DNA from: a virus
IMG/VR virus record: IMGVR_UViG_3300042260_000877
Location: 1-26,491 of that record
Strand: one strand, 5' to 3'
Length of the DNA: 26,491 bases
The notes beneath the pieces were generated by a model. That model had not been told where the DNA came from. It did not search any database and saw only the letters and a program-made list of their open reading frames with translations. Shown here piece after piece: positions 1,643 through 19,135 of this stretch. The first letter of the stretch is position 1. Every line of letters begins with the position of its first letter. A program made the position numbers and the translations under genes.

Positions 1643-2200
1643 ATGATCAAGTTAGCATCTTTATTACAAGAAATTAGTTTGGCGAGCGTATCCCCATACG
1701 CGACCCAATTTGTGTGGCGTAAACCCCACCCCGAAGACGACATATGGGAATGTGACTTTGAATTTGAAGATCAGCACCTAGATTATCAGAAGATTAAAAT
1801 GGTAATGCATCGATGGAAAACCCCTATACCCGATCATGAATATGAATATCAATTTGCATATTTTTCGCGAAGTGCTCCAGGTCAACCAACGGGATGGTCA
1901 ACGACGGCTACTAATTCGGCTGCTGCAGGCGCGGTTAATGTGCTTGCTCTGTTGAAAACAGTGGCACTTGCTATACGCGATTTTTCCGATCAAACGCCGG
2001 ATTGTGATGTGATTGACATTACCGGTGCAGATTCTGCATATGAGAAGGGTGAACAAAAGACTCGCATATATGCGGAGTTGTTTAGAGCCAATGGTATGCA
2101 CGTTGGATTTGCCATGAAGCATTATGGCGGTAAGCTCTATTTAATAAGGATTGGTATACGTGGGCGCACCGCAGATGCAACGGGTGTTAAGGACGTCTGA
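1643..2200 (+). CDS. Leader-bearing virion-type protein of unknown function (185 aa)
   Basis: The frame could be opened from a GTG at 1520, but the ATG at 1643 is chosen because it gives MIKLASLLQE, nearly the same leader as the genes at 2327 (MIKLKNILSE) and 3447 (MIRLTTLLNE). LLQE before Ile at residues 7-10 could be a prohead-protease-type cut site. The body contains YFSRSAPGQPTG followed by an Ala/Leu-rich helix, IRDFSDQTPDCDVIDI, then KTRIYAELFRA. This helix-strand-helix pattern reminds me of phage proteins with an I-x-D-F ... R-x-x-Y arrangement, but I cannot name the family. No clear Shine-Dalgarno is seen. The gene ends inside a 30-nt imperfect tandem repeat. Confidence 0.7.
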   Translation: MIKLASLLQEISLASVSPYATQFVWRKPHPEDDIWECDFEFEDQHLDYQKIKMVMHRWKTPIPDHEYEYQFAYFSRSAPGQPTGWSTTATNSAAAGAVNVLALLKTVALAIRDFSDQTPDCDVIDITGADSAYEKGEQKTRIYAELFRANGMHVGFAMKHYGGKLYLIRIGIRGRTADATGVKDV

Positions 2201-2257
2201 GAGCGGTCCTGGAGTCCGCAGGACGGTGAGTAGCGGAGCGTACCTGGAAGGACGCTC
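2190..2257 (+). repeat. Imperfect 30-nt tandem repeat with hairpins
   Basis: AGGACG recurs at 2190, 2220 and 2249. The first two copies continue with nTGAG, AGCGG and CCTGGA in the same order. The same segment can fold: GAGCG (2201-2205) pairs with CGCTC (2253-2257), enclosing GTCCTG (2206-2211) with CAGGAC (2219-2224) and a weaker GGT/ACC stem. It starts within the last codons of the preceding gene. It matches no ribozyme core I know and has no T tract. Confidence 0.5.
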
Positions 2258-2298
2258 TATACAATCGTACTAACGTTCTATGTATTTACAACGTACTA

Positions 2299-2306
2299 AT
2301 ATTTAT
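2299..2306 (+). promoter_or_regulatory. Candidate late promoter ATATTTAT for 2327
   Basis: ATATTTAT ends 20 nt before the ATG at 2327, leaving room for a short leader with the ribosome binding site AGGA. It is one of ten such octamers found just upstream of genes in this window. The flanking sequence contains a direct repeat CGTACTAA at 2266-2273 and 2292-2299. Confidence 0.6.
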
Positions 2307-2326
2307 TTTAAAATTAGGATACAACA

Positions 2327-3124
2327 ATGATTAAACTAAAAAATATTTTATCTGAGGGTTATGCTTGGGAACGTGAACCTGGCCAGCCTTTGCCTAACAT
2401 GAAAACCGTGCAGGAGAAGTATCAGAAAAATTTAAAAGAACAAGATCTGCAGTCTACGGATCCTGTATTGGGTAACCCTGGTAAACAAGTAAATGTAAAC
2501 CCGGCTAATCCGGAAGTATATGATATTAATGGAAATTTACTTCCAGACGTACCTGCAGATTTAAACAAGAATTTACGTGTACAAAATTATCGTGAAGTAA
2601 CTGTAACACCTAAATATTATTTCCAAACTAAAAATATGGGTGAGACAAATTATGTTAGATACGATGTAAAAACAGGTCAATTGATAGATAATAATACTGG
2701 AGAAAAATTAGTAAAACTTAGTCCAGGATTACCAGCACGTCAAGTTTATTTGTGGTTGAGAAGAAACCATATGGGTAAAGCAGATACTCGTTTTAAAAGA
2801 GAAAGCGTAAGACTTAAAGAATCTTTCGAAGATGAGTTGGATGCAGCAGACGAAGCCAATGAGGGTGCTAAACCTGATTACGTTGATCTAGATAAAGATG
2901 GCAACGAAGAAGAATCAATGAAACAAGCTGCTAAAGATGCTGAGGAATCAGACAAAGAAGTTAATGAAGAAGAAACTGAAGAAGAGTCTGATCATGCTGC
3001 TGATACTGCATCTGTGGATATGGATGTTTTGAATATGGGTTCTTTGGAAGAAGGATTTTGGAATCGTGTTAAAGGTAACTTGCATGGCCATGAATATATT
3101 TTAAGAGAAGCGTTTCGCAAATAA
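2327..3124 (+). CDS. Leader-bearing acidic virion-type protein (265 aa)
   Basis: The protein begins MIKLKNILSE before Gly-Tyr. ILSE followed by Gly matches the T4 gp21 prohead protease rule, (L/I)-X-E cut before Ala or Gly. Residues up to about 160 are mixed and contain VTVTPKYYFQTKNMG and YLWLRRNHMGK. Residues from about 165 to 230 are very rich in Glu, Asp and Ala, with the Ca-loop-like stretch DLDKDGNEEE, which lacks a Glu at loop position 12. The C-terminus is basic and aromatic (FWNRVKGNLHG). Acidic repeats of this kind are known from phage scaffold and core proteins, so a head-internal or scaffold-like role is possible. It has its own promoter motif and a strong terminator, making it monocistronic. 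Function is unproven. Confidence 0.75.
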   Translation: MIKLKNILSEGYAWEREPGQPLPNMKTVQEKYQKNLKEQDLQSTDPVLGNPGKQVNVNPANPEVYDINGNLLPDVPADLNKNLRVQNYREVTVTPKYYFQTKNMGETNYVRYDVKTGQLIDNNTGEKLVKLSPGLPARQVYLWLRRNHMGKADTRFKRESVRLKESFEDELDAADEANEGAKPDYVDLDKDGNEEESMKQAAKDAEESDKEVNEEETEEESDHAADTASVDMDVLNMGSLEEGFWNRVKGNLHGHEYILREAFRK

Positions 3125-3125
3125 C

Positions 3126-3165
3126 GCCTGCTACCTTAGGCATAACATTGCAGAGGCCAGTGTTA
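3126..3165 (+). other. Two tandem hairpins before the terminator
   Basis: GCCT (3126-3129) pairs with AGGC (3138-3141), and TAACATTG (3143-3150) pairs with CAGTGTTA (3158-3165) with one G-U pair. Both sit between the stop codon at 3124 and the terminator stem starting at 3168, so the mRNA 3' end would carry three hairpins in a row. Confidence 0.5.
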
Positions 3166-3167
3166 AG

Positions 3168-3193
3168 AGTGCGTCTTAGGGCGCACTTTTTTT
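3168..3193 (+). terminator. Intrinsic terminator
   Basis: AGTGCGTC (3168-3175) pairs with GGCGCACT (3180-3187) around a TTAG loop, with one G-U pair, and runs into seven T (3187-3193). It ends the transcript of the acidic leader-bearing gene at 2327. Confidence 0.9.
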
Positions 3194-3200
3194 GTGTTCG

Positions 3201-3208
3201 ATATTTAT
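3201..3208 (+). promoter_or_regulatory. Candidate late promoter ATATTTAT
   Basis: ATATTTAT lies directly after the terminator and only 4 nt before the ATG at 3213. If it is a -10 box, transcription would start at or just after that ATG, so the element may mainly serve the genes from 3304 onward. Confidence 0.55.
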
Positions 3209-3212
3209 TAAT

Positions 3213-3338
3213 ATGAATAGGTTATTTGCTTTTATTATAGGCACTGTGATATTTTGCTTTGCTGGGTTGTATTCGTTATATGAAATTTTAAAAAAGGGAA
3301 TCAATGGCAGCAAAGGCAAAAACAAACACAGCAAGTAG
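3213..3338 (+). CDS. Tiny membrane protein (41 aa)
   Basis: The frame from ATG 3213 gives one hydrophobic segment (FAFIIGTVIFCFAGLY, residues 5-20) followed by a basic tail rich in Lys and Gly. That is the look of a single-pass membrane peptide with a positive C-terminus. It overlaps the start of the next gene at 3304. The candidate promoter ends 4 nt upstream, so translation from this ATG would need a different transcript, or the peptide may not be made. Function is unknown; small phage membrane peptides of this sort are often involved in lysis or superinfection control, but nothing shows that here. Confidence 0.45.
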   Translation: MNRLFAFIIGTVIFCFAGLYSLYEILKKGINGSKGKNKHSK

Positions 3339-3450
3339 TTATATTTCGAAGCCGAAAGTAAAACGACCTGGAGTTCATGCTAAAAGTAAAATGAGTAAAC
3401 TCAAAACAAGTAAAAATTACGCTAAAGCTTATAGAGCACAAGGAAAATGA
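3304..3450 (+). CDS. Small very basic protein (48 aa)
   Basis: ATG 3304 is preceded by AAAAAAGGGAATCA, a good ribosome binding site at normal spacing. The protein contains about a quarter Lys and the stretch SKPKVKRPGVHAKSKMSK, ending AYRAQGK. I recall similar short proteins with an RPGVHAK core in T4-like phages, with no assigned function. Its high positive charge suggests nucleic acid binding. The stop codon overlaps the next start (ATGA at 3447-3450), so it is translationally coupled to the lysozyme gene. Confidence 0.7.
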   Translation: MAAKAKTNTASSYISKPKVKRPGVHAKSKMSKLKTSKNYAKAYRAQGK

Positions 3451-4553
3451 TACGATTAACTACATTATTGAATGAGGCATTGCGCGAACAAAAGAATGAT
3501 AATGCATTACGCATTTTGTTTGTCGGCGATGAAAATATGCGTTTTGCAAGGTCCGTAATCAAACAATTACAGGCTGATGGTTCAGTTTATAATTTTAAAG
3601 GAACTACTGCAGCGCAAATATTAAAAATAATCAAATCGCGCAATATTAACAAATACAACGTTGTTGTTATCATGGCAAGTAGTTATGACGGAGCTCCGGG
3701 TAAATCTAAAGCTGCTATCACAAATTTGTCAGAGGCATTCAATATAGTAAAACGGTCTGGAGCAAAATTAATTGCAATTTCAAATCCTACTAAAAGTTTT
3801 TTAACTAAGGATGATGGCAATTATAAAGACCATGGGTATCCTTCAAATGATGAGATTGGTACTTGGGTTAATCAACAAACTATATCAGATGAGACCATCG
3901 ATGTAAATTCTCTTGGTGAAAAATATTTAGCACCAAATCATGTTTCATTGAATACTGCAGCGCAAAAGTATATTGTTAAGAATTTGCTAGCGTTGGTTGA
4001 TGAATTGAACATAGAACCTAAAGATGATGTTAAGACAGCTACTGATACAAAGAGTATAGATGCTACAAAATCTTCTGCTGCTGCAGGAGCTGCAGATGTA
4101 ACTGACACTGGCGTTACTGTTGATGTTACAAAAGGTGAAATGGCTACGCCTAAACAAGTATTTGATTTCTTGGTAGGAAAAGGTTTATCTCCTGCAGGCG
4201 CAGCTGGCATTTTAGGAAACATGAAAGCAGAATCTAATTTTAAAACTAGTGCATTAGGTGATAGTGGTACTTCCGTTGGATTAGTTCAATGGCACGCTTC
4301 TAGAAAAGATAGATTGATGACTTGGGCTAAAGAAAAAGGATTAGACCCAATGTCAGTAGATGGACAGTTAGAATACTTGTGGTGGGAGTTAACTAATAAA
4401 TTTAGTAAACTAACAAGCTTGTTGAAAACTATTCAAGATCCATATGAAGCTGCATATCAATTTGCAAAACAATTTGAACGACCGGCGGTGATTGCAAAAA
4501 CACGAATGCTCGGCGCACAACAATATTTTGATATTTTTAATAAGTCTGAATAA
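3447..4553 (+). CDS. Leader-bearing protein with SGNH-like domain and tail-lysozyme domain (368 aa)
   Basis: Three parts can be seen. Residues 1-10 (MIRLTTLLNE, then Ala) form a leader with a T4 gp21-type cut site. Residues about 20-190 look like an SGNH/GDSL hydrolase fold: LRILFVGDEN at strand 1, VVVIMASSYDG in the middle and APNHVSLN where block V His would be. The usual GDS nucleophile is GDE, so it may be inactive. Residues about 230-368 match the phage tail-lysozyme type (Phage_lysozyme2): FLVGKGLSPAGAAGILGNMKAESNF, shown here from 4165 onward, with the likely catalytic Glu in KAESNF, then GLVQWHASRKDRL. The enzyme would cut peptidoglycan during entry or exit. An Ala/Thr-rich linker joins the domains. 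It overlaps the preceding small gene by ATGA. Confidence 0.8.
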   Translation: MIRLTTLLNEALREQKNDNALRILFVGDENMRFARSVIKQLQADGSVYNFKGTTAAQILKIIKSRNINKYNVVVIMASSYDGAPGKSKAAITNLSEAFNIVKRSGAKLIAISNPTKSFLTKDDGNYKDHGYPSNDEIGTWVNQQTISDETIDVNSLGEKYLAPNHVSLNTAAQKYIVKNLLALVDELNIEPKDDVKTATDTKSIDATKSSAAAGAADVTDTGVTVDVTKGEMATPKQVFDFLVGKGLSPAGAAGILGNMKAESNFKTSALGDSGTSVGLVQWHASRKDRLMTWAKEKGLDPMSVDGQLEYLWWELTNKFSKLTSLLKTIQDPYEAAYQFAKQFERPAVIAKTRMLGAQQYFDIFNKSE

Positions 4554-4571
4554 TTATATATAAAGGATACA

Positions 4572-4946
4572 ATGTTTGAAAAATTAATTTCTACATTAAT
4601 GGCATCAAGAGATCAAGCTCATATTTTTCATTGGCAAACTACAGGACCTGGCTCATTTGCTGCACACATGGCATTAGGTGCATATTATGATGCAATACCT
4701 GATATGGTTGATGCATTAGTTGAAACGCATCAAGGTAAGCATGGAATCTTAAAAGGATTTGAACCTGCTGAGCGTTTTGATGAATATTCTAAAGATGGAG
4801 CTATTAAATACTTTAAAGCATTGGCTACATATATTGATCGCGTATACAATAAAATTCCAAAAGAAGATACAAACATTATCAATCAAATCGATGCATTTAA
4901 AGATTTAATTTATACTACAATTTATAAGTTGGAGAATTTACAATGA
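4572..4946 (+). CDS. Dps/ferritin-like protein (124 aa, DUF5856-like)
   Basis: The N-terminal half has HIFHWQTTGPGSF followed by AAHMALGAYYD and MVDALVETHQGK. His20-Trp21, His32, Asp47 and Glu51 have the same spacing as the ferroxidase residues His31, His43, Asp58 and Glu62 of Listeria innocua Dps (from memory); the residue matching Dps Asp47 is Gly36. The protein is all helical in outlook but shorter than Dps (about 150-165 aa), so only part of the four-helix bundle may be present. Dps oxidises iron and coats DNA. The family of unknown function DUF5856 in phages has this look. The gene follows the lysozyme gene by 18 nt with AAAGGA as ribosome binding site and overlaps the next by ATGA. Confidence 0.7.
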   Translation: MFEKLISTLMASRDQAHIFHWQTTGPGSFAAHMALGAYYDAIPDMVDALVETHQGKHGILKGFEPAERFDEYSKDGAIKYFKALATYIDRVYNKIPKEDTNIINQIDAFKDLIYTTIYKLENLQ

Positions 4947-5368
4947 TTTTTGATGAAACAAATCCGCGCCACATTGAAATCTTACGCGAAGAGTTAAAAC
5001 GTGCTAAAAAATTAATGGCTGAACAAGAAACTCCAGCGCGAGGTACGGATGCTTGGGCTACTACTACTATTGCATCTAAAGATCCAACATTTGGTAGAGT
5101 TCTTTATAGAGGCGCGTTAGATATCATGAAACGAGATGAAAAGAATCGTCAGCGATATGATCGTTTACTTTCGCAATATCTTAAAAATGTCAATAAAGCA
5201 ACAATTGAAGAGTTAACCGTACGCGAAATGGAAAACTTTCATGATTTACTTATTAAGTTTAAAAATAAAATAACTACACCAGTTATGTGGACTACAGATA
5301 AACCATCTGCATTAACGCCTGATGCATATAAATCAGGACAAGGCCGCGGCGGTTGGCAAGGAGACTAG
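4943..5368 (+). CDS. Possible leader-bearing protein of unknown function (141 aa)
   Basis: The start overlaps the previous stop as ATGA. The N-terminus is a charged amphipathic helix (HIEILREELKRAKKLMAEQE, residues 10-29). LMAE before Gln resembles the hydrophobic-X-Glu endings of the other leaders in this window, though the segment before it is longer. The middle is helical and basic (YRGALDIMKRDEKNRQRYD), and the C-terminus is Gly-rich and likely disordered. No family is recognised. A virion or packaged protein is a reasonable guess from the neighbours only. Confidence 0.65.
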   Translation: MIFDETNPRHIEILREELKRAKKLMAEQETPARGTDAWATTTIASKDPTFGRVLYRGALDIMKRDEKNRQRYDRLLSQYLKNVNKATIEELTVREMENFHDLLIKFKNKITTPVMWTTDKPSALTPDAYKSGQGRGGWQGD

Positions 5369-5568
5369 AATGGAATCAGGGAGTTGCACGTTTTATTTTT
5401 ATAATTGACACTGATCAATCCGGGAAACAAACACCCCGGTTTCTTAACATATCTTGCATACAACAAGTATTTCAACGAGGCAATGATGTTTTTATTGAAA
5501 TGACTGATTATACTGAAATGTGCGTTAAAGATACTAATATCAACGTATTTATGGATCGTTTTATTTGA
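5353..5568 (+). CDS. Small protein with uncertain start (about 71 aa)
   Basis: The frame encodes RFIFIIDTDQSGKQTPRFLN and then INVFMDRFI at the end, a beta-rich small protein I do not recognise. No ATG or GTG is available before the conserved-looking part; the only usual start is TTG at 5353. Yet a good ribosome binding site, AAGGAG, sits 7 nt before an ATG at 5370 in another frame, which stops after 12 codons. Either the TTG is used, a rare ATT start is used, or a one-base change has shifted the true start out of frame. Confidence 0.5.
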   Translation: MARRLEWNQGVARFIFIIDTDQSGKQTPRFLNISCIQQVFQRGNDVFIEMTDYTEMCVKDTNINVFMDRFI

Positions 5569-5573
5569 TTCAA

Positions 5574-5581
5574 ATATTTAT
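5574..5581 (+). promoter_or_regulatory. Candidate late promoter ATATTTAT for 5604
   Basis: ATATTTAT ends 22 nt before the ATG at 5604, with AAAAAAAGG as ribosome binding site in between. It lies in the short gap after the stop at 5568. Confidence 0.6.
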
Positions 5582-5603
5582 AATAAATTAAAAAAAGGTT
5601 TTT

Positions 5604-5789
5604 ATGACATCACAAGAATTATTTGACACGATGAAAGAACATTGGTTAGCTTTCGAAGAGAACCATGTACGCTTTACAGAAAAAGGAACAAAGGCTGCTG
5701 GCGTTAGAGCACGTAAATCTATTAACGAATTGAAAAAATTATCTAGCAAGTATCGTTCAACTCAATTAGCAGAATCAAAAGTTAAATGA
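5604..5789 (+). CDS. Histone H1-like Hc1-family protein (61 aa)
   Basis: Residues 25-52 (from FTEKGTKAAGVRARKSINEL to SSKYR) follow the pattern of the Hc1 N-terminal domain, EKGNKAA-x-RVR-x-x-x-x-x-L-x-x-x-x-x-x-YR. Hc1 proteins condense DNA in Chlamydia, and short versions are common in Bacteroidota. This copy has the helical Hc1 core but only a short Lys tail (AESKVK), not the long Lys/Ala repeats of chlamydial Hc1. It would be expected to bind DNA, either host or phage. The gene starts a unit with its own promoter motif and overlaps the next gene by ATGA at 5786. Confidence 0.65.
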   Translation: MTSQELFDTMKEHWLAFEENHVRFTEKGTKAAGVRARKSINELKKLSSKYRSTQLAESKVK

Positions 5790-6616
5790 AACAACAAAGC
5801 CGCATATTAGAATCTATATTAGATAGCATCTTGCAAGAACAAGAAGATGCACAAGTTGCTGTAACAACAGACAATGCACCTAGTGATGCGGTTGATTCTC
5901 CCTTTACACCTGCAGAAGAACGATTCTTAGGTAAATTTGATGCATATGGTACACAGCACATTGGTATTATATATTCAACGTCGATAGCAGGCATCCGCGA
6001 GTTTGTTGCTAGAAGCGGTAGAGATTTAAATGTTACCCCAGGAATACTTTTAAAATTATTACGTAAAAAAATCATCAAGCTAGTTCCATATACAGGGTTT
6101 GGTCGTAACAATGACTATACAATTGAATTGCAATTATCATTAGATGACGTAAAAGGTTTAGGTACTGCAGATAAAGAAAAAGTACAAGCAGGCTCTGGTG
6201 CAGCTGGTGGCGGTGGCGGGTTAGATTTAGGATCAACACCTGAAACTCCTGCAGCACCTCCTGCACCTGAAGTTGCTTGGGTAATTAATTACGGAAATTT
6301 ATTGTCTGAAAGTGCAAAAATTGCAAAAACGCTGATAACATCACAAATTTCAGAAGCAAAAAAGTCAGATATTCAAATTTATACCGATGCATCTAGAATG
6401 CTAAAACGTTTTCCTAAACATTTTATATATCATTTGACAAAAATGGTAGAAACAATGGAGAAAAAAGCAAAAACTAAGCACGAAACGGAGCGTTTGATTG
6501 CAGACATCCTTGACAATTTGCAAGTCAACTTGAAATTGAAGCCTAGTGACGTGAAAAAATCATATGAATTTCACAAAAATCAAAAACGATTGCAAAAACA
6601 TTTGAAAACTAAGTAA
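5786..6616 (+). CDS. Leader-bearing virion-type protein of unknown function (276 aa)
   Basis: The leader RILESILDSILQE before Gln (residues 6-18) ends in the same X-Glu-Gln pattern as the minus-strand leader proteins. After an acidic stretch, residues 41-125 form a compact domain (RFLGKFDAYGTQHIGIIY, then TPGILLKLLRKKIIKLVPY). A flexible linker rich in Gly, Pro and Ala follows (about 134-162). The C-terminal 110 residues are basic and helical. No enzyme motif is seen. The architecture of leader, domain, linker and basic tail would suit a packaged DNA-binding protein, which is inference. It is coupled to the Hc1-like gene. Confidence 0.7.
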   Translation: MKQQSRILESILDSILQEQEDAQVAVTTDNAPSDAVDSPFTPAEERFLGKFDAYGTQHIGIIYSTSIAGIREFVARSGRDLNVTPGILLKLLRKKIIKLVPYTGFGRNNDYTIELQLSLDDVKGLGTADKEKVQAGSGAAGGGGGLDLGSTPETPAAPPAPEVAWVINYGNLLSESAKIAKTLITSQISEAKKSDIQIYTDASRMLKRFPKHFIYHLTKMVETMEKKAKTKHETERLIADILDNLQVNLKLKPSDVKKSYEFHKNQKRLQKHLKTK

Positions 6617-6660
6617 TTTTTCTTATTATTTAGGTAAGAAATCAAATAAAATATAAAAAA

Positions 6661-6870
6661 ATGAGTTATTACATTGCAAAAGTCCAATTGACGGACACGG
6701 TGGACACTCCGAAAGGTCCAAAAGAAAAGAAAGTTTCAGAAACGTATCTAGTAGAAGCACTTTCAGTAACTGAAGCAGAAGCAAAGGTGGTAAATGATTT
6801 CCAAGGTTATACCATGGATTTCGAAGTTAAGTCAGTTTCTGCAAGCAAAATCATCAAAATTATCGGATAA
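6661..6870 (+). CDS. DUF4494-like small protein (69 aa)
   Basis: The stretch KKVSETYLVEALSVTEAEAK (about residues 23-42), then a hydrophobic segment and FEVKSVSASKIIKII, resembles the DUF4494 family, small proteins frequent in Bacteroidota genomes and their phages. The fold is probably beta-alpha-beta. Function is unknown. The gene follows a weak hairpin (TTTCTTA 6619-6625 with TAAGAAA 6635-6641) and an AT-rich block. The stop and the next start overlap as TAATG at 6868-6872. Confidence 0.65.
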   Translation: MSYYIAKVQLTDTVDTPKGPKEKKVSETYLVEALSVTEAEAKVVNDFQGYTMDFEVKSVSASKIIKIIG

Positions 6871-7169
6871 TGTCATATAAAGCAGGAGACGAAGTAATCG
6901 TAACATCAGAGGGTGTTAATCGAGTAGCCGTGATCTTAGATCGACGCGTTATAAATAAATCTTCAGTATATGATGTATTGTTAGAAAACCGCAGTGCATT
7001 GGTTATGTTGAATACATCGCATAATGCACGTAATTTTATCAATAAAACTCTTACTGAAAAGTTATGTGAAAGTGGCGTAATTCAATCTACAATTCCTTAC
7101 AAAGATTTAGTTGCAAATGAACAATTGCCACATCTAGATGCAAATTCAGCAGGCAAAGCTTCTTGGTAA
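6870..7169 (+). CDS. Protein of unknown function (99 aa)
   Basis: The N-terminus MSYKAGDEVIVTSEGVNRVAVI reads like a small SH3-like barrel (strand-turn-strand with a GDxV turn). The C-terminus is short and Ala/Ser-rich. It is coupled to the DUF4494-like gene by TAATG and followed at 6 nt by a methyltransferase-like gene, so these are likely one operon. No specific family is recognised. Confidence 0.6.
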   Translation: MSYKAGDEVIVTSEGVNRVAVILDRRVINKSSVYDVLLENRSALVMLNTSHNARNFINKTLTEKLCESGVIQSTIPYKDLVANEQLPHLDANSAGKASW

Positions 7170-7175
7170 TCTAAA

Positions 7176-7847
7176 ATGAATTATATGGATGTTAATGAAT
7201 TAAAAAATCAAATTCTGAATAATCTTCAAAATGTTGACACACAATATCAACAATGGGATTCATTAGAACCAACTGATCCGGATTACATGATGTATCATCC
7301 TGCTCCGGTAGGTTATAATACAACTGCAGAGCAACGCTACTTAATGCAAAATTTATTAGTAGGATTTAGCGGCGGTTCTTTATTAGATATTGGTTGTGGC
7401 CGTTGTGATTTATATGATGTAGCTCGCGAAATGGCTGCGTTAAACAATGACACTATAGCATATAGTGCCATAGACCATAATCCTGTAATAACTGCATTAG
7501 GCGAACAAAAATGGGGCTTAAATGCAATCCGTGTAGGTGCATTTGAAACTGCTAAATTTAATCCACACCAATGGGTTGTTGCATCAGGTGTGTTTACTCA
7601 ACGACGATGCCAAACTGAATCAGATGATTTACAAAAACTGTTTGAAGATGTTGATATTCTTTATAACACTGCAACTCAAGTGGTAGCATTTAATTTACTA
7701 TCACCGATCAACACTACACGTCACGAAGGATTCTTTTATGTGCATCCTGGATTAGTTCTTGATATGTTGATTGAAAAATATCAAAACGTTGTGTTACGAC
7801 ACAATTATTCACCAGATGTATATACAGTATTAATTTATAAATTTTAA
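7176..7847 (+). CDS. Class I SAM-dependent methyltransferase-like protein (223 aa)
   Basis: Motif I is clear: SLLDIGCGRCDLYDVA at about residues 68-83, where GCG would bind S-adenosylmethionine. An acidic residue after strand 2 (YSAIDHNP, about 95-102) fits motif II. The C-terminal part has strand-rich segments (VVAFNLLSP and VYTVLIYKF) where the last strands of the Rossmann fold would be. The N-terminal 60 residues may cap the active site. The substrate cannot be read from the sequence: no NPPY or other DNA-methylase signature is present, so a small molecule, protein or tail component is possible. Confidence 0.75.
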   Translation: MNYMDVNELKNQILNNLQNVDTQYQQWDSLEPTDPDYMMYHPAPVGYNTTAEQRYLMQNLLVGFSGGSLLDIGCGRCDLYDVAREMAALNNDTIAYSAIDHNPVITALGEQKWGLNAIRVGAFETAKFNPHQWVVASGVFTQRRCQTESDDLQKLFEDVDILYNTATQVVAFNLLSPINTTRHEGFFYVHPGLVLDMLIEKYQNVVLRHNYSPDVYTVLIYKF

Positions 7848-7854
7848 AAAACAA

Positions 7855-8247
7855 ATGTTAAAAAGTATTAATCAACCATGGGCTATTTCTGAGAAAATTG
7901 CTAATCGTTATGGAGAAACTTGGACTAATTTAGATTTTGTCTTCGAAGACAAAATTTCAGAAGAAAATTTTAAAACAGATCCAATGAATTGTGCAATTGG
8001 CACTTTGCAAGTTGCAGGCCAAAAAATTCAAATGCGTTATAAAGATTTAATCTCTTACGCAAAGACAATGGATACATTGACTGCAAATATGTATGCATCA
8101 AAGCCAAAGAAAACAGATACCTTTGCTGTCGACATTAAAGGCCGCGTTGTAATGTTAGCAAAACATGAAGTTTCTAAATTAAATGATACAATTGCAGAAG
8201 CATATCAATCAACGAATCGAGGATATGAATTAGGACTATATTTATAA
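7855..8247 (+). CDS. Protein of unknown function (130 aa)
   Basis: It follows the methyltransferase gene by 7 nt. Residues are mixed, with IGTLQVAGQKIQMRYKDLI in the middle and FAVDIKGRVVMLAKHEVSKL near the end, suggesting an alpha/beta domain. No motif, signal peptide or membrane segment is visible and I do not recognise the family. Its last codons contain the promoter octamer for the next gene. Confidence 0.6.
   Translation: MLKSINQPWAISEKIANRYGETWTNLDFVFEDKISEENFKTDPMNCAIGTLQVAGQKIQMRYKDLISYAKTMDTLTANMYASKPKKTDTFAVDIKGRVVMLAKHEVSKLNDTIAEAYQSTNRGYELGLYL
8238..8245 (+). promoter_or_regulatory. Candidate late promoter ATATTTAT for 8266
   Basis: ATATTTAT lies over the stop codon of the preceding gene and ends 20 nt before the ATG at 8266, with AAAAGG as ribosome binding site. 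The spacing matches that at 2327, 5604 and 15935. Confidence 0.55.
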
Positions 8248-8265
8248 TTAAATAAAAGGTCCGAT

Positions 8266-8442
8266 ATGATCTACATTTTTCATTATAAGTCAGATACAAA
8301 ATGTGAACCAATTGGTCGTGTAATGGCAACGAGTTTGGACGAGGCACGAGAAATGATTTCAGAAATAAAAGTACTTTCTGAAGACATAATCGATGAATTG
8401 TTTGTAATAAAAAGGCTCGAAGACCATGAAAACCATATTTGA
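8266..8442 (+). CDS. Small protein of unknown function (58 aa)
   Basis: The ATG at 8266 follows AAAAGGTCCGAT, a good ribosome binding site. The protein runs MIYIFHYKSDTKCEPIGRVM to the end KRLEDHENHI, with a strand at the N-terminus and a helix rich in Glu in the middle (SLDEAREMISEIKVLSED). Its last 17 bases overlap the next gene in another frame. It is supported by its promoter motif, ribosome binding site and position. No family is recognised. Confidence 0.6.
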   Translation: MIYIFHYKSDTKCEPIGRVMATSLDEAREMISEIKVLSEDIIDELFVIKRLEDHENHI

Positions 8443-8857
8443 TAATATTTTTGTTAGTAAATTCGAATATAATTACTTTATGCAATTGGATTCGGTAGAT
8501 CAACTTAACTATTTCTTTGATATGTATGAGGCCGCAGTGCTGCCGAAGAATTCTATAGATTTATCTGGGTTCTTTGGTAGCATTAAGGATTCTATTGAAG
8601 ATAATTCAATTTCTCAAAAAAATGAAGACGTACCTGCAGATTCAGATCGAGTCGATGTAATGATCGATGATGAAAATATTTTGATTGAATCTAATAGTTT
8701 GCGTGCTGTCCGGCATATTGCATTACAATTCGTTGAAGCAGGATATATTTTGACTCGAGACAAAAACATGGAAAAAATGTTTCGCAAAGACAAAGTAACA
8801 AGATATATTCGCATCTTCAAGATAATTAATCAAGTATCAACATTATGTCTTAATTAA
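8426..8857 (+). CDS. Protein of unknown function (143 aa)
   Basis: It starts inside the end of the 58-aa gene and its stop overlaps the next start as TAATG. The N-terminus is aromatic-rich (FDNIFVSKFEYNYFMQL). The middle is acidic and probably disordered, and the C-terminus is a basic helix-rich segment (MEKMFRKDKVTRYIRIFKII). No motif is recognised. It is translationally coupled on both sides. Confidence 0.6.
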   Translation: MKTIFDNIFVSKFEYNYFMQLDSVDQLNYFFDMYEAAVLPKNSIDLSGFFGSIKDSIEDNSISQKNEDVPADSDRVDVMIDDENILIESNSLRAVRHIALQFVEAGYILTRDKNMEKMFRKDKVTRYIRIFKIINQVSTLCLN

Positions 8858-9417
8858 TGGCAAAAAAATCAAACGTTCCAGAAAACATTCAAAAACAATT
8901 TGATAAACCTCAATTCAAACAAGGAGATCCAGTATTCTTTTCTTGGTTGGGTTCTAAAAAATACGGTTATGTTACTTTCTTTAAAACAACAAATTGGGGT
9001 ATTCAGTATACGGTTGAAGAAAACAATGTACGCTATCCTTGCGGCATTGAAATTAAAACCTACAAAACTGCGTATACAACAGGATACATCCGATACGACG
9101 AAACTAGATCAATTGGACGAGATGAGCTCATTACACGCATCCAAACCGGACACTCAAGCACTTATTCAGAGCTTTTTATCGACACCCGAAGGACAGAGGT
9201 ACAAAGCGGAAGCACATCTGGAGTTAGCAAACGCGTATCTGCAAAGAATACTAAAGGAGTTAAATCAACCAAATCTAACGTTAAGGGAAAAGATGTTGTT
9301 CAACCTAGCGCTAATGGAAATACTGCAGGAGATAGAAAAAAACGAGGAAATACTGAACTCGACTCTGCAATAGAAAAGCAACGCAACTTTTTGAATGGTT
9401 TTGTTAAAAAAGATTAG
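8857..9417 (+). CDS. Protein with SH3-like head and disordered basic tail (186 aa)
   Basis: Residues 1-80 look folded: FKQGDPVFFSWLGSKKYGYV resembles a KOW/SH3-like barrel, followed by IQYTVEENNVRYPCGIEIK. From about residue 90 to 170 the protein is rich in Ser, Thr, Lys and Gly, with no hydrophobic pattern, and it ends in a short helix (IEKQRNFLNGFVKK). The disordered part coincides with a second frame at 9122-9373 that encodes a well-patterned helical protein. Basic tail plus small barrel suggests nucleic acid or protein binding; the family is not recognised. Confidence 0.65.
   Translation: MAKKSNVPENIQKQFDKPQFKQGDPVFFSWLGSKKYGYVTFFKTTNWGIQYTVEENNVRYPCGIEIKTYKTAYTTGYIRYDETRSIGRDELITRIQTGHSSTYSELFIDTRRTEVQSGSTSGVSKRVSAKNTKGVKSTKSNVKGKDVVQPSANGNTAGDRKKRGNTELDSAIEKQRNFLNGFVKKD
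9122..9373 (+). CDS. Nested overlapping gene for an 83-aa helical protein
   Basis: This frame lies wholly inside the 8857 gene. From ATG 9122, after TTGGACGAG as a possible ribosome binding site, it encodes MSSLHASKPDTQALIQSF, then AEAHLELANAYLQRIL and EKMLFNLALMEILQEIEKNE. The heptad-like spacing of Leu, Ala and Ile is that of a real helical bundle. The host frame is disordered over exactly this stretch, as expected when two frames are both constrained. The frame also opens upstream to 8900, but that part reads as a shadow. Third codon positions here are richer in G and C than in neighbouring genes. Family unknown. The alternative is chance. Confidence 0.45.
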   Translation: MSSLHASKPDTQALIQSFLSTPEGQRYKAEAHLELANAYLQRILKELNQPNLTLREKMLFNLALMEILQEIEKNEEILNSTLQ

Positions 9418-9446
9418 GATTTGGTTGGACGTTTGAATTTTTCTTC

Positions 9447-9472
9447 TTATATTAATAGTATAAAATAAGAGA
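9447..9472 (+). promoter_or_regulatory. 26-bp block shared with 10664-10689, upstream of 9474
   Basis: The block starts TTATATTAATAG and ends TATAAAATAAGAGA, and it is identical over 26 bp to the block at 10664-10689. It ends one base before the ATG. It probably combines a -10-like element (TATATT or TATAAA) with the AAGAGA ribosome binding site. No ATATTTAT octamer is present, so this is a different promoter class from the virion genes. Confidence 0.55.
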
Positions 9473-9473
9473 T

Positions 9474-9887
9474 ATGAAAAATTTATTCCTTTCTACAATC
9501 TTCGTGGTTATAGCATTTGCAAGTAATGCTCAATTGAAAATCATTAATGTGTATGAAGTTATTACTTTCAATAAAGATTCATTAACTACGACACCATATG
9601 ATGTTATCAAAAATCCATCTTATATCAGTGATACTTTAAAAATTTCAAAAAGATTTATTATTAATTTTTCTAATAATACATTTATTGAATATGAAAATGG
9701 CGAAAATATTTCTAATGGCACTGTAGAAATTATTCGAGAATTGGTTGGCGATGGATTTAAAGTTTTACTTAAGGATTCAAGCAATTTGATTAGAGGTATC
9801 GATAGTTATTTAATATTTTGTTATTATTTCGTTCAAACAGAAAACCAAACATCTGTTGAATACTTTGAAAGCTTTTCTATTTATTAG
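9474..9887 (+). CDS. Exported protein of unknown function (137 aa)
   Basis: A clear type I signal peptide is seen: MKNLFLSTIFVVIAFASNAQ, with likely cleavage after Ala-Gln or Asn-Ala near residue 19-20, the style common in Bacteroidota. There is no lipobox Cys. The mature part is rich in Asn, Ser, Ile and Phe and strand-forming (FIINFSNNTFIEYENGENIS). The family is not recognised. It is the plus-strand member of the first convergent cassette, with a bidirectional terminator 9 nt after its stop. The product would reach the periplasm or outside of the infected cell. Confidence 0.7.
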   Translation: MKNLFLSTIFVVIAFASNAQLKIINVYEVITFNKDSLTTTPYDVIKNPSYISDTLKISKRFIINFSNNTFIEYENGENISNGTVEIIRELVGDGFKVLLKDSSNLIRGIDSYLIFCYYFVQTENQTSVEYFESFSIY

Positions 9888-9895
9888 TACAGTAA

Positions 9896-9925
9896 AAATG
9901 GGGTAGTTATTAGCTTACCCCATTT
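9896..9925. terminator. Bidirectional hairpin terminator between convergent genes
   Basis: AAATGGGGTA (9896-9905) pairs with TACCCCATTT (9916-9925). A T-rich stretch follows on the plus strand, and an A run precedes it (9894-9898), giving T on the minus strand. It serves 9474 on the plus strand and 9938-10603 on the minus strand. The core ATGGGGTAGTTATTAGCT is repeated at 11258-11275. Confidence 0.8.
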
Positions 9926-9937
9926 CTATATTTTTAA

Positions 9938-10603
9938 CTATGCATTTAGTGTTGATAAAATTGATTTATCTGCAATTGGTGTCATTATTTCATTTTTAGG
10001 TGCATATGCGCCATATACATTTGGAAAATAGTATACTTTATTTCCTATAATACGAAAGTGTGCTTTCATTGGCAGACCTTTTAATTTATATTCATCAATT
10101 GTTAGTTTAGCATTCGGATCATATGATAATGGATACATTGTTCCCTGATTACCATTAGGACCAGCTATAGTCATTTTTTCACTACAAATAAAAATACAAT
10201 CTAAATCGCCTTCTTCAACTTGACCGCCTTTCATTAAGATGTGATTTTTTCCTTTATATGTTTCTACAATCGGAAAATTTGCTACCGGTGCAGTTACGCC
10301 AGTTAATGCTAATGTTTGTGATTGATCTTGAAAATTATATTGTGCGCCGAATTGTGCCGTTTTCGCCCAACCAACAGCTTGCTTTCCAACTACGCCGCTA
10401 GAATAATATGAAATTAAATTTTGCCAAATTATTTGATTTTGTTGCGAAGGTTCTGAAGTTTGTTTTATTCTAGGGTCTTGAAATGCAGATTCCAAATTTG
10501 ATATTTGTTCATTTAATGCAGCTTCTTCAATTTTTTTAATGTCAGATTCTTGTAAATTCTTTACGCCAAATCTAAGCATATTCTCTGCTAATTTATTTTT
10601 CAT
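9938..10603 (-). CDS. Leader-bearing protein of unknown function (221 aa)
   Basis: It begins MKNKLAENMLRFGVKNLQE, sharing LAENM-x-RFG-x-KNL with the other minus-strand gene ending at 11301. A possible processing site, ALNE before Gln, is at residues 29-32. The rest has mixed strands and loops (GQVEEGDLDCIFICSEKMTI, then AHFRIIGNKVYYFPNVYGAY). I recall this leader type in phage proteins, and here it probably marks the protein for the virion. The body family is not recognised. It reads against the neighbouring genes, has its own promoter octamer at 10634-10641, an AAAGGA ribosome binding site and a shared terminator. Confidence 0.7.
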   Translation of the reverse strand: MKNKLAENMLRFGVKNLQESDIKKIEEAALNEQISNLESAFQDPRIKQTSEPSQQNQIIWQNLISYYSSGVVGKQAVGWAKTAQFGAQYNFQDQSQTLALTGVTAPVANFPIVETYKGKNHILMKGGQVEEGDLDCIFICSEKMTIAGPNGNQGTMYPLSYDPNAKLTIDEYKLKGLPMKAHFRIIGNKVYYFPNVYGAYAPKNEIMTPIADKSILSTLNA

Positions 10604-10633
10604 ATTGTCCTTAAAGGTTACTTATTTTTTTAT

Positions 10634-10641
10634 ATAAATAT
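10634..10641 (-). promoter_or_regulatory. Candidate late promoter ATATTTAT (minus strand) for 9938-10603
   Basis: Read on the minus strand the octamer is ATATTTAT, ending 30 nt before the start codon at 10603. It lies 22 bp from the divergent plus-strand block at 10664, so two promoters of different classes fire in opposite directions here. Confidence 0.55.
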
Positions 10642-10663
10642 TTGGATTTGTGAAAAAGATTAA

Positions 10664-10689
10664 TTATATTAATAGTATAAAATAAGAGA
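10664..10689 (+). promoter_or_regulatory. 26-bp block shared with 9447-9472, upstream of 10691
   Basis: It is identical to the 26-bp block at 9447-9472. Here AGATTAAT (10657-10664) precedes TATAAA (10676-10681) by 11 nt, the same arrangement as before the gene at 793. The ATG follows at 10691 after AAGAGAG. Confidence 0.55.
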
Positions 10690-10690
10690 G

Positions 10691-11248
10691 ATGAAAAAGC
10701 TATTAGTTATCTTATTTCCATTCGTTGCATTTACTCAGGTTAATAATGCTGAGATTCAAGCAGAATTTACTAAATTGATAAATGCTCATAGAGCCGAGCA
10801 TGGTGTTGCTCCTCTTAAAACAAATGCAGATGCTCAAAAGGCTGCAAAGATTCAATCTGATTATTTAGCATCGACGTTGCGTGTTGAAAATGATCAAATA
10901 AAAGCTATTATCGGACATATTCATCCAGAGTTTCCGCGTGTTAGTGATCGATTGGAAGAAGCTAACGCAGTAACAGCTGAAAATTTTACAACCGGTGAGA
11001 ATGCTGCAGAATTTTTTAATGATAATAATCCATCAAGCAAAGATATTGCAAATCAACTTTTTGAACAATGGAAAGCAAGTCCGGGACATAACAAGAACAT
11101 GTTGCTTGGTGATTATACTCAATATGGTATTGCGGTTAGTGTAAGTCAAACAACTATAACTCATACATTTCCTAATACTAACACTACTTATACTACAACA
11201 TATGTTATGTATTCAGGCGTTACAGTTTTTTTATGGCCAACTAATTAA
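10691..11248 (+). CDS. Exported CAP/SCP-domain protein (185 aa)
   Basis: A signal peptide (MKKLLVILFPFVAFTQ) is followed by a CAP-superfamily domain with the usual landmarks: LINAHRAEHGVAPL (about residues 29-42), GHIHPEFPRVSDRL (from about 76), TGENAAEFF, WKASPGHNKNMLLGDY and YGIAVSVS. The His of NAHR, the Glu of GENAA and the His of SPGH are present, so the CAP cavity looks intact. Bacterial CAP proteins are secreted and of mostly unknown role; some bind lipids or act on the cell envelope. In a phage, an effect on the host envelope or on competing phages is a guess. It is the plus member of the second convergent cassette. Confidence 0.85.
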   Translation: MKKLLVILFPFVAFTQVNNAEIQAEFTKLINAHRAEHGVAPLKTNADAQKAAKIQSDYLASTLRVENDQIKAIIGHIHPEFPRVSDRLEEANAVTAENFTTGENAAEFFNDNNPSSKDIANQLFEQWKASPGHNKNMLLGDYTQYGIAVSVSQTTITHTFPNTNTTYTTTYVMYSGVTVFLWPTN

Positions 11249-11256
11249 ACATAAAA

Positions 11257-11283
11257 AATGGGGTAGTTATTAGCTACCCCATT
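11257..11283. terminator. Bidirectional hairpin terminator between convergent genes
   Basis: AATGGGGTAG (11257-11266) pairs perfectly with CTACCCCATT (11274-11283) around TTATTAG. An A run at 11253-11258 gives a T tract on the minus strand; on the plus strand the T tract is weak. Its core is nearly identical to the hairpin at 9896-9925. Confidence 0.8.
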
Positions 11284-11300
11284 ACTACTGTTTATTCATT

Positions 11301-12611
11301 TTAATCTTTAAAGAAACAATCAATCGATCTTTGAGGAGCTACAGCACCTGGGGTAACTTTATTAACAAATTGATTCCATTTATTATCTAAATTTAATTTT
11401 TTAAAGTTTACATCAATTGTAGGATACCAATATGGTATTTTAATTCCTTTTTGTTTGCGATAAAATTCAATTGTATATAAATTGCTTTTTATTTCTTGAC
11501 TTGCATCTGGTTGTTGCGCTTCTCCGGCTGTTGATGGAACTAATTTATTTTTCATTACTAAATCAACTGTTACAATAACATATTTGAATTCATCATATGC
11601 TGATTTATCTGGTTTCGGCGTACCAAAATCGTTTCTATTCTTTATTGTACATATTTGTTGATTTGTATCAGCACAACTCCATGTTTGTCTGCCATCTGTA
11701 TTAAATGGTGTAGGTGCCGGAGGGTTTGGACCAGTTGTACCATCTCCGTGTGAGCCTTTAGGATTGATAATGTATTGAGTTTCATATTTACCATTAGGAC
11801 TCTTGCCTACAAAAATACCCGCAGCTTTCATACGTTCAACTACATAAGCGCTAGCTGCATTTGCACGTTCTTGTGAAAGTTGTAACCATGTTTTATCTGC
11901 AGCAACGCCAGTATTACGGAATCGACTCGATGAGGTAGTTACTGACAATTTTAACAAGTAAAATTCAGGATCTGTAATTTTAGCATCTGCAGCAGCACGC
12001 TGAATTGATTGAATGAAAAAATCAACTTCACTTTTGAATTCATCGCGAATAATTGCTGTATTGTCATCAAAATATTGACGATTTGGGTTTGATGGAAATG
12101 CTAATGGAAAACTGATATCTTTTTGCCAATCCATACTACCGCCTTCAGTTTTCATTTTAGTTATGAATTCTTCTGACCCGACAAATACATTAGTCCATTT
12201 CATTTTTGGTTGCGTTTTTTCAAAATATGCAATTGCAGCAACTCCATACTTTACATTTTTTGGATCTGTTTTTAGTTGTTTCCAATTTTGTAAAGAACCT
12301 GGATCCATTAAACTTTCCATTAATTTTACTTGGTTAACAATATCGAATCCGTATATTTGTTTATTTGTAGCTAACATCGAAACCCATTGTTCTCCGGTAT
12401 AATTGCCATATGGAATATCGTAATTTTTTTCATCAAATTCTCGATCAGGTGCTGTATCAGATGCAGATTTTTTACCTACAAATGCAGTACCACTTTTGCT
12501 ACCAATATCAATACCATTTTGTTCCGATAAAATAAATTCATCTATCCATGATAAATTTTTAGCTCCAAACCGGATCATATTTTCTGCTAAACGTTGTTCT
12601 AAATTTTTCAT
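11301..12611 (-). CDS. Leader-bearing protein with OmpA-like region (436 aa)
   Basis: The N-terminus MKNLEQRLAENMIRFGAKNL carries the leader shared with the gene at 9938-10603, and ILSE before Gln at residues 27-30 could be a cut site. About residues 225-275 include LLKLSVTTSSSRFRNTG, then LQLSQERANAASAYVV and MKAAGIFVG. This follows the OmpA C-terminal pattern, in which LSxxRAxAVxxYLxxxGI binds peptidoglycan. The Asp normally before the loop is not evident, so binding may be lost or changed. A Pro/Gly-rich loop and a Cys pair (SCADTNQQICTI) follow. It is long for an OmpA domain protein, with large unknown parts on each side. A role at the cell wall is possible. Confidence 0.65.
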   Translation of the reverse strand: MKNLEQRLAENMIRFGAKNLSWIDEFILSEQNGIDIGSKSGTAFVGKKSASDTAPDREFDEKNYDIPYGNYTGEQWVSMLATNKQIYGFDIVNQVKLMESLMDPGSLQNWKQLKTDPKNVKYGVAAIAYFEKTQPKMKWTNVFVGSEEFITKMKTEGGSMDWQKDISFPLAFPSNPNRQYFDDNTAIIRDEFKSEVDFFIQSIQRAAADAKITDPEFYLLKLSVTTSSSRFRNTGVAADKTWLQLSQERANAASAYVVERMKAAGIFVGKSPNGKYETQYIINPKGSHGDGTTGPNPPAPTPFNTDGRQTWSCADTNQQICTIKNRNDFGTPKPDKSAYDEFKYVIVTVDLVMKNKLVPSTAGEAQQPDASQEIKSNLYTIEFYRKQKGIKIPYWYPTIDVNFKKLNLDNKWNQFVNKVTPGAVAPQRSIDCFFKD

Positions 12612-12714: not shown

Positions 12715-13740
12715 ATGATACGTTATGGCTATGCTTGTATCAACATGGAGTTGTCGTCTCAAGGTATTCGTACCGGTCGCACCATGATTGATCGCAAATT
12801 TAAATTAGGCGGTTTGCAACTTGCATCCGACATTGCTCTTGCCAATGCTCGCGACTTGTTGACTATTCTGCAATGGAATGAACGTAATGGCATTCGCTTG
12901 TTTCGTTTAGGATCTGAGCTCTTCCCTCGTTGGAACCATTATGAGCTTGCAGATTTGCCGGATATTGCTCTTATTGCACAGCATCTTCGTGCCGCAGGTG
13001 ATTATGCCAAGGCGCATGGACATCGCATTACAACGCACCCTGGTCCGTTTCATATCTTAGGTAGTCCTGATGCAGCGGTTGTTGATAATAGCATCGTTAG
13101 TCTTGAACGACACTCTGAGCTCTTCGATCTTATGGGTTTTGCACCTAGCTTCGAAAACAAGATCAATATTCACGTAGGTTCTACATATGGTGATAAGCCT
13201 AGCACTATTGCAAGATGGTTGCACAACTATGATCGTTTATCAGATTCCGTTAAGGCTCGGTTAGTTATCGAAAATGATGATAAGGCATCTATGTATTCCG
13301 TACGAGAATTGCATAAAATGCTTCATGTTGAGATTGGTATTCCAATTACATTTGACTATTGGCATCATACTTTCAATACCGGTGACTTATCCGAAGAAGA
13401 AGCATTCTTCTTAGCACGCGAGACGTGGACTAAGTACGGTGTAACCCAATGTACCCATTACAGTGAATCCCGTCGTAGAGAGGCTCAAACCCTTATAGAA
13501 CGAATGTTTAAACATCATAACATTGCAATGGAGGATTTGCCGAAATGGCCCACCTTCCACAAACAATACAAAGAATTTACCAAGATCAAGGAGCAGGCTC
13601 ATGCCGACTTTATTTTAGCAACTCCGAATACATACGGTGTAGCTGATTTAGATATTATGGTTGAGGCTAAGGCTAAGGAGCAATCGTTAATGCAATTAAA
13701 TTTAGAATGTTGTCAAAAAACAGCATTAATTTTATCATGA
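12715..13740 (+). CDS. uvdE: UV-damage endonuclease UvdE/UVDE (341 aa)
   Basis: The whole length follows the UvdE family: MIRYGYACINMEL at the N-terminus, DLLTILQWNERNGIRLFRLGS (residues 47-67 region), THPGPFHILGS, SLERHSELFDLMGF, INIHVGSTYGDK, RLVIENDD, FDYWHH, then CTHYSES. The likely metal ligands are present: His108, His133, His153, Glu186, Asp214 or His217/218, and His248. UvdE nicks DNA 5' of UV photoproducts and other lesions. It has the role that T4 fills with the unrelated denV enzyme. G+C is clearly higher than around it (28 of 60 bases at 12901-12960, against 17 of 60 at 16381-16440), so recent acquisition is plausible. It stands alone with its own promoter. Confidence 0.92.
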   Translation: MIRYGYACINMELSSQGIRTGRTMIDRKFKLGGLQLASDIALANARDLLTILQWNERNGIRLFRLGSELFPRWNHYELADLPDIALIAQHLRAAGDYAKAHGHRITTHPGPFHILGSPDAAVVDNSIVSLERHSELFDLMGFAPSFENKINIHVGSTYGDKPSTIARWLHNYDRLSDSVKARLVIENDDKASMYSVRELHKMLHVEIGIPITFDYWHHTFNTGDLSEEEAFFLARETWTKYGVTQCTHYSESRRREAQTLIERMFKHHNIAMEDLPKWPTFHKQYKEFTKIKEQAHADFILATPNTYGVADLDIMVEAKAKEQSLMQLNLECCQKTALILS

Positions 13741-18183: not shown

Positions 18184-18693
18184 ATGGATTCAAAAGCACT
18201 TGTAAAAGCACTAAAAATAGCCGTACGTGAGGTTATTAAAGAAGAATTAGTTGAAATTCTTCGCGAAGGATTACAACCTACTATTTTAGAAATGACAAAT
18301 TCGTCAAAATCTGTAAAAGTACCCGTACATGAACCGCAGACTAAAACTACACCTATGCCTAAAAAGCGTGTGATGTTTGAAGAAAATAAATGGGCATCTG
18401 TACTCAATGAAACGGATGCATTATCAGAACAATCTCCGGGGGCAATGAATAGTTTTGCTGAAATGATGAATGAAGGTATAGAAGAAATTCGAATGACTTC
18501 AGCCAATGCTCAAGGATTTGGGGCAATGCGCGAAAATATGCGTTCTGCAATTACAGGTCAAGCAACAGCACCTAAGATAATGGAAGATCCGGAAACTGGC
18601 AAAACATTTGAAGTTCCCGAAGAGATACAACAAGCAATGACTCGTGACTATTCAGCTTTGATGAAAGCAATGAACAAGAAAAAAGGTATTTAA
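18184..18693 (+). CDS. Virion-block protein of unknown function (169 aa)
   Basis: The N-terminus is a basic/acidic helix (ALKIAVREVIKEELVEILRE, then Gly), followed by a linker rich in Lys, Pro and Thr and a helical C-terminal half with DPETGKTFEVPEEIQQAM. ILRE before Gly resembles the leader endings seen elsewhere, but it lies 28 residues in and may be chance. No family is recognised. It overlaps the gp25-like gene as TAATG. Confidence 0.6.
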   Translation: MDSKALVKALKIAVREVIKEELVEILREGLQPTILEMTNSSKSVKVPVHEPQTKTTPMPKKRVMFEENKWASVLNETDALSEQSPGAMNSFAEMMNEGIEEIRMTSANAQGFGAMRENMRSAITGQATAPKIMEDPETGKTFEVPEEIQQAMTRDYSALMKAMNKKKGI

Positions 18694-19127
18694 TGGCATA
18701 TGTTATACAACCGGCAGTACAAAACAATGTAGATACTAAATTAGGTGTCGCGCTTACGTTTGGAAACCCGGGTGTATTTACATCGTTATTAGAAACAACT
18801 GCGCAAGCAGCTAATAACTTGAAAAATTTGCTGTTAACTAGAATTGGAGAACGATATCATCAGCCAACATTTGGAACTACATTAATGAATATTGTATTTC
18901 AACCAAGTGATGATGAAATAAAACAAGATATTTATGATGCTATCATACCTCCGGTTAGTGTTTGGTTACCATATATTAATATAGATTCAATTGATGTTGT
19001 TACGCCTTTAGATGACCCATCAGTTGAATATCATTTAACGATTACAATCACATATAGTGTAAGTGGAATTGTTGTTGATCCGTTAAGGATTTTCGTTGAC
19101 GAAAATGGATCTGTAGAAATCGAATAA
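18693..19127 (+). CDS. Baseplate wedge protein, gp25/GPW family (144 aa)
   Basis: The family signature is clear: AANNLKNLLLTRIGERYHQP and FGTTLMNIVFQPSDDEIKQD (residues 36-75 region), then strand-rich IDSIDVVTPL and LTITITYSVSG. In T4 gp25 joins the wedge and starts the sheath; the EPR-like core of the family is here the IGERYHQPTFG loop. Length (144) is close to T4 gp25 (132). It is followed at 8 nt by the gp6-like gene, the order seen in many contractile tail clusters. Confidence 0.88.
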   Translation: MAYVIQPAVQNNVDTKLGVALTFGNPGVFTSLLETTAQAANNLKNLLLTRIGERYHQPTFGTTLMNIVFQPSDDEIKQDIYDAIIPPVSVWLPYINIDSIDVVTPLDDPSVEYHLTITITYSVSGIVVDPLRIFVDENGSVEIE

Positions 19128-19135
19128 GGGAGAAA

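Follow-up and report, generated by a model that had tools for sequence, protein, structure and literature searches.

The window, i.e. the whole 26,491-base stretch of viral DNA analysed here, is a virus record that is itself only a fragment, and from its baseplate genes it is judged to derive from a T4-like phage with a contractile tail. In particular, the baseplate wedge genes at 18693-19127 and 19136-21016 (plus strand, span 18693..21016) match PHROGs 43/261 and 219/10646, and a tblastn comparison of the baseplate wedge gives Microcystis phage Mel-JY01 (53%), LR756508, an uncultured 484 kb huge phage, and Flavobacterium phage immuto (both 42%) as the nearest annotated relatives. The IMG/VR contig G106 is identical to positions 1-24017 of the window, and the contigs G127 and G125 are syntenic with it and keep its leader genes in the same order; both gp21 and gp23 are present in these two syntenic contigs, as they are in another relative, G038.

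Leader-bearing genes

The N-terminal leaders quoted in an earlier note on this DNA are all present, on the plus strand at 1643, 2327, 3447, 4943 and 5786 and on the minus strand at 9938 and 11301. Three plus-strand genes carry near copies of one leader, M-I-K-L-x-x-L-L-x-E (class A), and the note was right that the bodies behind them are unlike, as none matches another. The first (1643..2200, 185 aa) has the leader MIKLASLLQE (1643-1672), with a putative cut site MIKLASLLQE|I and a body beginning ISLASVSPYATQFVW. When seven IMG/VR homologues were aligned, Glu10 was invariant and the other leader residues varied; the structure model contains a domain at residues 21-173, with low confidence for residues 1-20, and its comparison with the PDB gave no strong or convincing fold match. 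The second (2327..3124, 265 aa, acidic in its C-terminal half) has the leader MIKLKNILSE (2327-2356), followed by GYAWER, so that the site reads MIKLKNILSE|G, and its relatives begin MIKLKNLLKE|GFAWER, MIKLKNILSE|AYAWER or MKLKTLLE|GYAWER. The third (3447..4553, 368 aa), with the leader MIRLTTLLNE (3447-3476) and the site MIRLTTLLNE|A, ends in a phage tail lysozyme domain (PF18013, E 3e-33) and is the sole named putative cargo within the window. Its homologues mostly begin with A-type leaders whose last residue is Glu, for example MIRLKSLLFE or MIKLKHILTE, and a few have deviant ones (MKHIKLIEQ, MIRLKQILES).

Two further plus-strand genes begin with longer sequences, the propeptide MIFDETNPRHIEILREELKRAKKLMAE (4943-5023, gene 4943..5368), ending KKLMAE|Q, and the propeptide MKQQSRILESILDSILQE (5786-5839, gene 5786..6616), ending SILQE|Q. 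The 4943 pattern FDxxNPxHxxILxEE occurred, among the matches listed, in only 23 IMG/VR stretches, mostly of one family, in which the propeptide usually ends [LI][LIM]xE; it was rejected as a third portable leader class, being essentially one gene family. In a 26-member alignment of the 5786 propeptide, Glu18 is kept in more than 90% and most other positions are variable, consistent with a divergent propeptide specific to its family; the body resembles a winged helix only weakly, and no strong PDB match was found. The earlier note had placed both in a common leader set. Their leaders are real, and the Glu is mostly kept, but they are family-specific propeptides and not a portable leader.

On the minus strand, the gene at 9938..10603 (221 aa) carries a leader (10508-10603) that comprises MKNKLAENMLRFGVKNLQE and a second candidate site, AALNE|Q, while the gene at 11301..12611 (436 aa) begins MKNLEQRLAENMIRFGAKNL and ends its leader, MKNLEQRLAENMIRFGAKNLSWIDEFILSE (12522-12611), in FILSE|Q. 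These are class B leaders. Among the matches listed, more than 50 further IMG/VR stretches share the 9938 leader, in most cases with no similarity beyond the first 30-40 aa, and matches to 11301 are limited to its leader, the identical contig aside. The description of the 11301 protein as OmpA-like could not be upheld, with no Pfam match at E 0.05 and no PHROGs match. Adjoining the class B genes are a CAP-domain protein (10691-11248, PF00188) and a second small protein (9474-9887), each with a signal-peptide-like N-terminus; a UV-endonuclease UvdE is encoded at 12715-13740 (PF03851, E 6e-57). The gene at 1103 (MKNVTEIIQE) was considered as additional cargo and rejected, as the motif is absent from its immuto orthologue. 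Conserved phage genes without leaders, at 4572 and 5604, lie between the cargo genes, and a packaging module is therefore not proven by position alone.

Conservation and phage specificity of the leaders

Searched for in IMG/VR as degenerate DNA, MIKLKxLLxE opened ORFs of 60 aa or more in 138 of the 139 matches listed, compared to 1 of 120 for a control pattern with the same codons in shuffled order. Of the 118 matches listed for bacteria and archaea, 31 were in open frames and 11 were start-like. Such pattern scans yield rates only, and their totals are lower bounds. By a second count, 12 genomes or fragments together contained 111 leader N-termini, where shuffling the N-terminal residues left about 3.1; the regular expressions were chosen after the leaders had been seen, G106 duplicates the window, and the 26 leaders of LR756508 include many paralogues, leaving fewer independent events. 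The degenerate-DNA scan is the cleaner test of the two. Chance and compositional bias are ruled out by the shuffles, internal Met, the codon-shuffled pattern and the bacterial genomes. Moreover, the codons for leucine and other leader residues vary synonymously, indicating that the peptide is what is conserved.

When positions 9 and 10 were left free, Glu stood at position 10 in 85 of the 99 new ORF-opening matches listed, so that roughly a seventh of class A leaders lack it in this unconstrained test. In class A almost any residue can follow the Glu (A 56, K 46, G 44, S 43, I 39, E 37 and D 35; n = 419), whereas T4-type leaders have A there in 63 of 136. No description of these leaders was found in the literature searched, from which subscription journals were mostly absent.

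Two leader classes and their exchange

Class B leaders have the form (...LAE)NMxRFGxKNLxE, i.e. class A plus a 12-residue extension. Of the 135 AENMxRFGxKN matches listed across IMG/VR, 129 are no more than 20 aa from the start; the usual start is an A-like segment, e.g. MIKLKNILAENM, and many leaders read MIKLKNILAENMxRFGTKNLxE. The two classes proposed earlier were both confirmed, but class A is contained in class B.

There are 23 loci with both class A and class B leaders, and one with class A and T4-type leaders. Two zeta-type kinases, L507 with a class A and L543 with a T4-type leader, align at 42% over 236 aa starting directly after the Glu, MIKLMDLLNE|GVRDPGIFKAIFLAGGPGSGKS versus MKTFQDFIQE|GVNDPGIFKAFYTAGGPGSGKS. 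Likewise, L050 (A) and L294 (B) have homologous bodies (67% over 108 aa), and there are additional, weaker pairs; some pairs align deeper in one protein and were not counted as evidence of exchange at the junction. Homologous cargo joined near the Glu to A, B or T4-type leaders makes the leaders look interchangeable. In immuto (L003, 2294-18931), near the head genes, the N-termini MENFDLKKFLVENKLTxNSxLLxE and MKKSxLxxxIKEEL recur, and are possibly other leader classes.

The gp21 protease and the predicted capsid-protein site

The earlier note had called for a search for a gp21-like protease. The window, being a fragment, contains no match, but the protease is found in relatives, including the syntenic G127 and G125, and all three of the first relatives have it. 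With all contigs at least 16 kb long, gp21 is present in 28 of 50 contigs with class A leaders and in 7 of 37 control contigs (p = 8e-4), although some controls are themselves gp21/gp23 phages. Because contig sizes differ between the sets, the figure conditioned on gp23 is better: 21 of the 22 class A contigs having gp23 also have gp21. The protease was detected in 6 of 31 class B contigs, many of them short, and in 12 of 35 T4-type contigs. The existence of leader-bearing phages without gp21 was considered and rejected, as the large class A contigs in question (G022, G034) lack gp23 as well, and in all likelihood they are fragments; in G010, gp23 is near the contig end and gp21 is absent.

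Aligned to mature T4 gp23, the relatives' major capsid proteins have a predicted site ENQAKQ[LI][LIV]xE|[AS], the same hydrophobic-hydrophobic-x-Glu as in the leaders, and the protease N-termini carry [LI]xE|S. Separately, the prohead protease and T4-type portal genes of LR756508 (L012:6480-8201, L011:45763-49920) and G013 (L658:11424-12500, 6664-9720) have intein-like insertions that match Intein_splicing, Hint and LAGLIDADG; the protease insertion follows ELDHPD.

Predicted cargo repertoire

A search for further proteins with the same leaders, also proposed earlier, found at least 699, whose bodies form 280 clusters by single linkage. Pfam matches were few among 148 representatives (lysozyme, SLT, VanY, M23, NUDIX, HD and one 5'-3' exonuclease, which may be a chance leader), and zeta-type kinases are also among the cargo. 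Lysozyme, SLT, VanY, NUDIX and zeta-type kinase cargo could plausibly be injected enzymes. Leader proteins of immuto include gp082 (MRLLELLRE|A) and the product of the gene at 24569 (MIKLIDLLTE|S). In LR756508, a cluster of roughly 15 paralogues carries leaders and shares conserved R, ESKF and E motifs (L015:29494-37884, L014, L013, L012); the assignment of this LYRG cluster to ADP-ribosyltransferases was confirmed by neither Pfam nor PDB profile searches, and one other cargo has weak Tpt1/ART matches. In leader proteins of G127 (L714:9893-10426), immuto (gp093, L003:3366-3806) and relatives, a kinase-like GxGxxGxVY...FKIT is visible by eye, for which no Pfam support was found.

Discussion

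The portable leaders are in all likelihood capsid-targeting propeptides of a head-targeting system. The sequences themselves show that the leaders are conserved, portable and specific to phages, that they follow the Glu rule and swap with T4-type leaders, and that relatives have gp21/gp23; packaging, cleavage and ejection are inferred. With that reservation, comparative evidence gives good support to the earlier note's central inference, that diverse cargo is routed to the head and trimmed by a gp21-like protease. Under this explanation, the N-terminal leader would pull late-made cargo into the prohead as it assembles, the leader's hydrophobic residues at about positions 4, 7 and 8 presumably binding the scaffold core; a gp21-type protease would then cleave after the Glu of the hydrophobic-hydrophobic-x-Glu motif, and the mature cargo would remain with the DNA until ejected into the host. 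In class B this signal would be lengthened by 12 residues, which end in a further LxE site. Capsid targeting is supported by the T4 register of the leaders, their exchange with T4-type leaders, gp21/gp23 in relatives and the matching capsid-protein site; counting against it are the free residue after Glu, the roughly one-seventh of leaders without Glu10, and the deviant homologues of 3447.

A restriction of this explanation, rather than a full alternative, is that only class A serves packaging, with another role for class B, or for the 4943 and 5786 propeptides, e.g. in scaffold or structural proteins trimmed in place. Each of these propeptides is confined to one family and class B occurs in a narrower contig set; however, classes A and B share loci and swap on homologous bodies, and class B leaders usually start with an A-like segment, making the restriction unlikely. 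The leader could also be a tag for another structure or compartment (tail, baseplate, membrane or phage nucleus), its Glu being a docking motif and not a cleavage site. Such a destination would suit the tail lysozyme-type protein in the window, the cargo matching tape-measure or tail-lysin PHROGs, and the unconstrained residue after Glu, but it is improbable when homologous cargo swaps with T4-type leaders, whose type is proven to target the capsid, when the capsid protein has the same type of site, when leaders co-occur with gp21/gp23, and when the Glu is kept within variable propeptides. Finally, an RNA-level or translation-initiation element, or recently duplicated gene starts without protein function, would account for likeness limited to the first codons, yet is scarcely tenable given the free synonymous variation of leader positions, the persistence of Glu over hundreds of unrelated bodies, and the swapping on one body of leaders that differ in both DNA and protein sequence.

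Returning to capsid targeting, many unrelated proteins of this uncultured bacterial virus, and of a large set of related viruses, share a tag that very probably carries them into the head before it is removed. The tag could serve to predict which proteins the particle carries and may inject into bacteria; for only a handful of phages are such proteins known. Genomes can be searched with a short peptide rule for candidate packaged proteins, about 280 cargo families having come from few scans, and the address tag would mark a large, mostly unknown packaged proteome. The leader proteins are thus candidates for roles in early host takeover and counter-defence, and the leaders themselves suggest new tags with which proteins could be loaded into phage heads. 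More speculatively, the class B NMxRFGxKNLxE might be a second sorting or timing signal, dividing head cargo into at least two sets (through a different place in the core, processing in two steps, or the order of ejection), all belonging to a single address system shared by T4-like phages, the Flavobacterium phage, the Microcystis phage and the 484 kb huge phage; this remains a tentative possibility.

Comparison with known head systems

In T4, ten residues of the targeting sequence are enough for packaging, positions 4 and 7 acting in targeting and 8 and 10 in processing (PMC9026906). According to the T4 record, IPII and IPIII start MKTYQEFIAE, and class A has the same register, with hydrophobic L4, L7 and L8 and with E10. 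Both systems have a short leader, usually of 10 residues, on unrelated bodies, together with a gp21-family protease and a gp23-family capsid protein; homologous cargo takes either leader, and the T4-type pattern is equally start-specific (136 of the 137 IMG/VR matches listed). They differ in that class A is Leu-rich (MIKLKxLLxE) where T4 has MKT[YF]xxFIxE, in the unconstrained residue after Glu, in the added NMxRFGxKNLxE of class B, and in the number of leader proteins, which reaches about 26 per genome in distant phages; processing of the class A and B leaders is inferred. Class A does not meet the T4 signature MKT[YF]xxFIxE|A and, being Leu-rich with a variable residue after Glu, is a functional analogue or variant outside it. 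The T4 capsid-targeting principle would thereby extend to very distant phages.

Iyer and colleagues (PMC9503650) similarly predicted that enzymes, including ARTs and NUDIX proteins, travel inside myovirus heads and are injected; in the part of that work available, these predictions derive from neighbouring genes and fused domains, whereas the peptide tag is a direct sequence criterion. In phiKZ and SPN3US, internal head proteins are cut after Glu by a gp21 relative, the phiKZ motif being S/A-x-E (PMC9026906); in contrast, the system described here has a conserved, short and portable leader with a hydrophobic-hydrophobic-x-Glu end, and belongs to gp23/gp21 phages.
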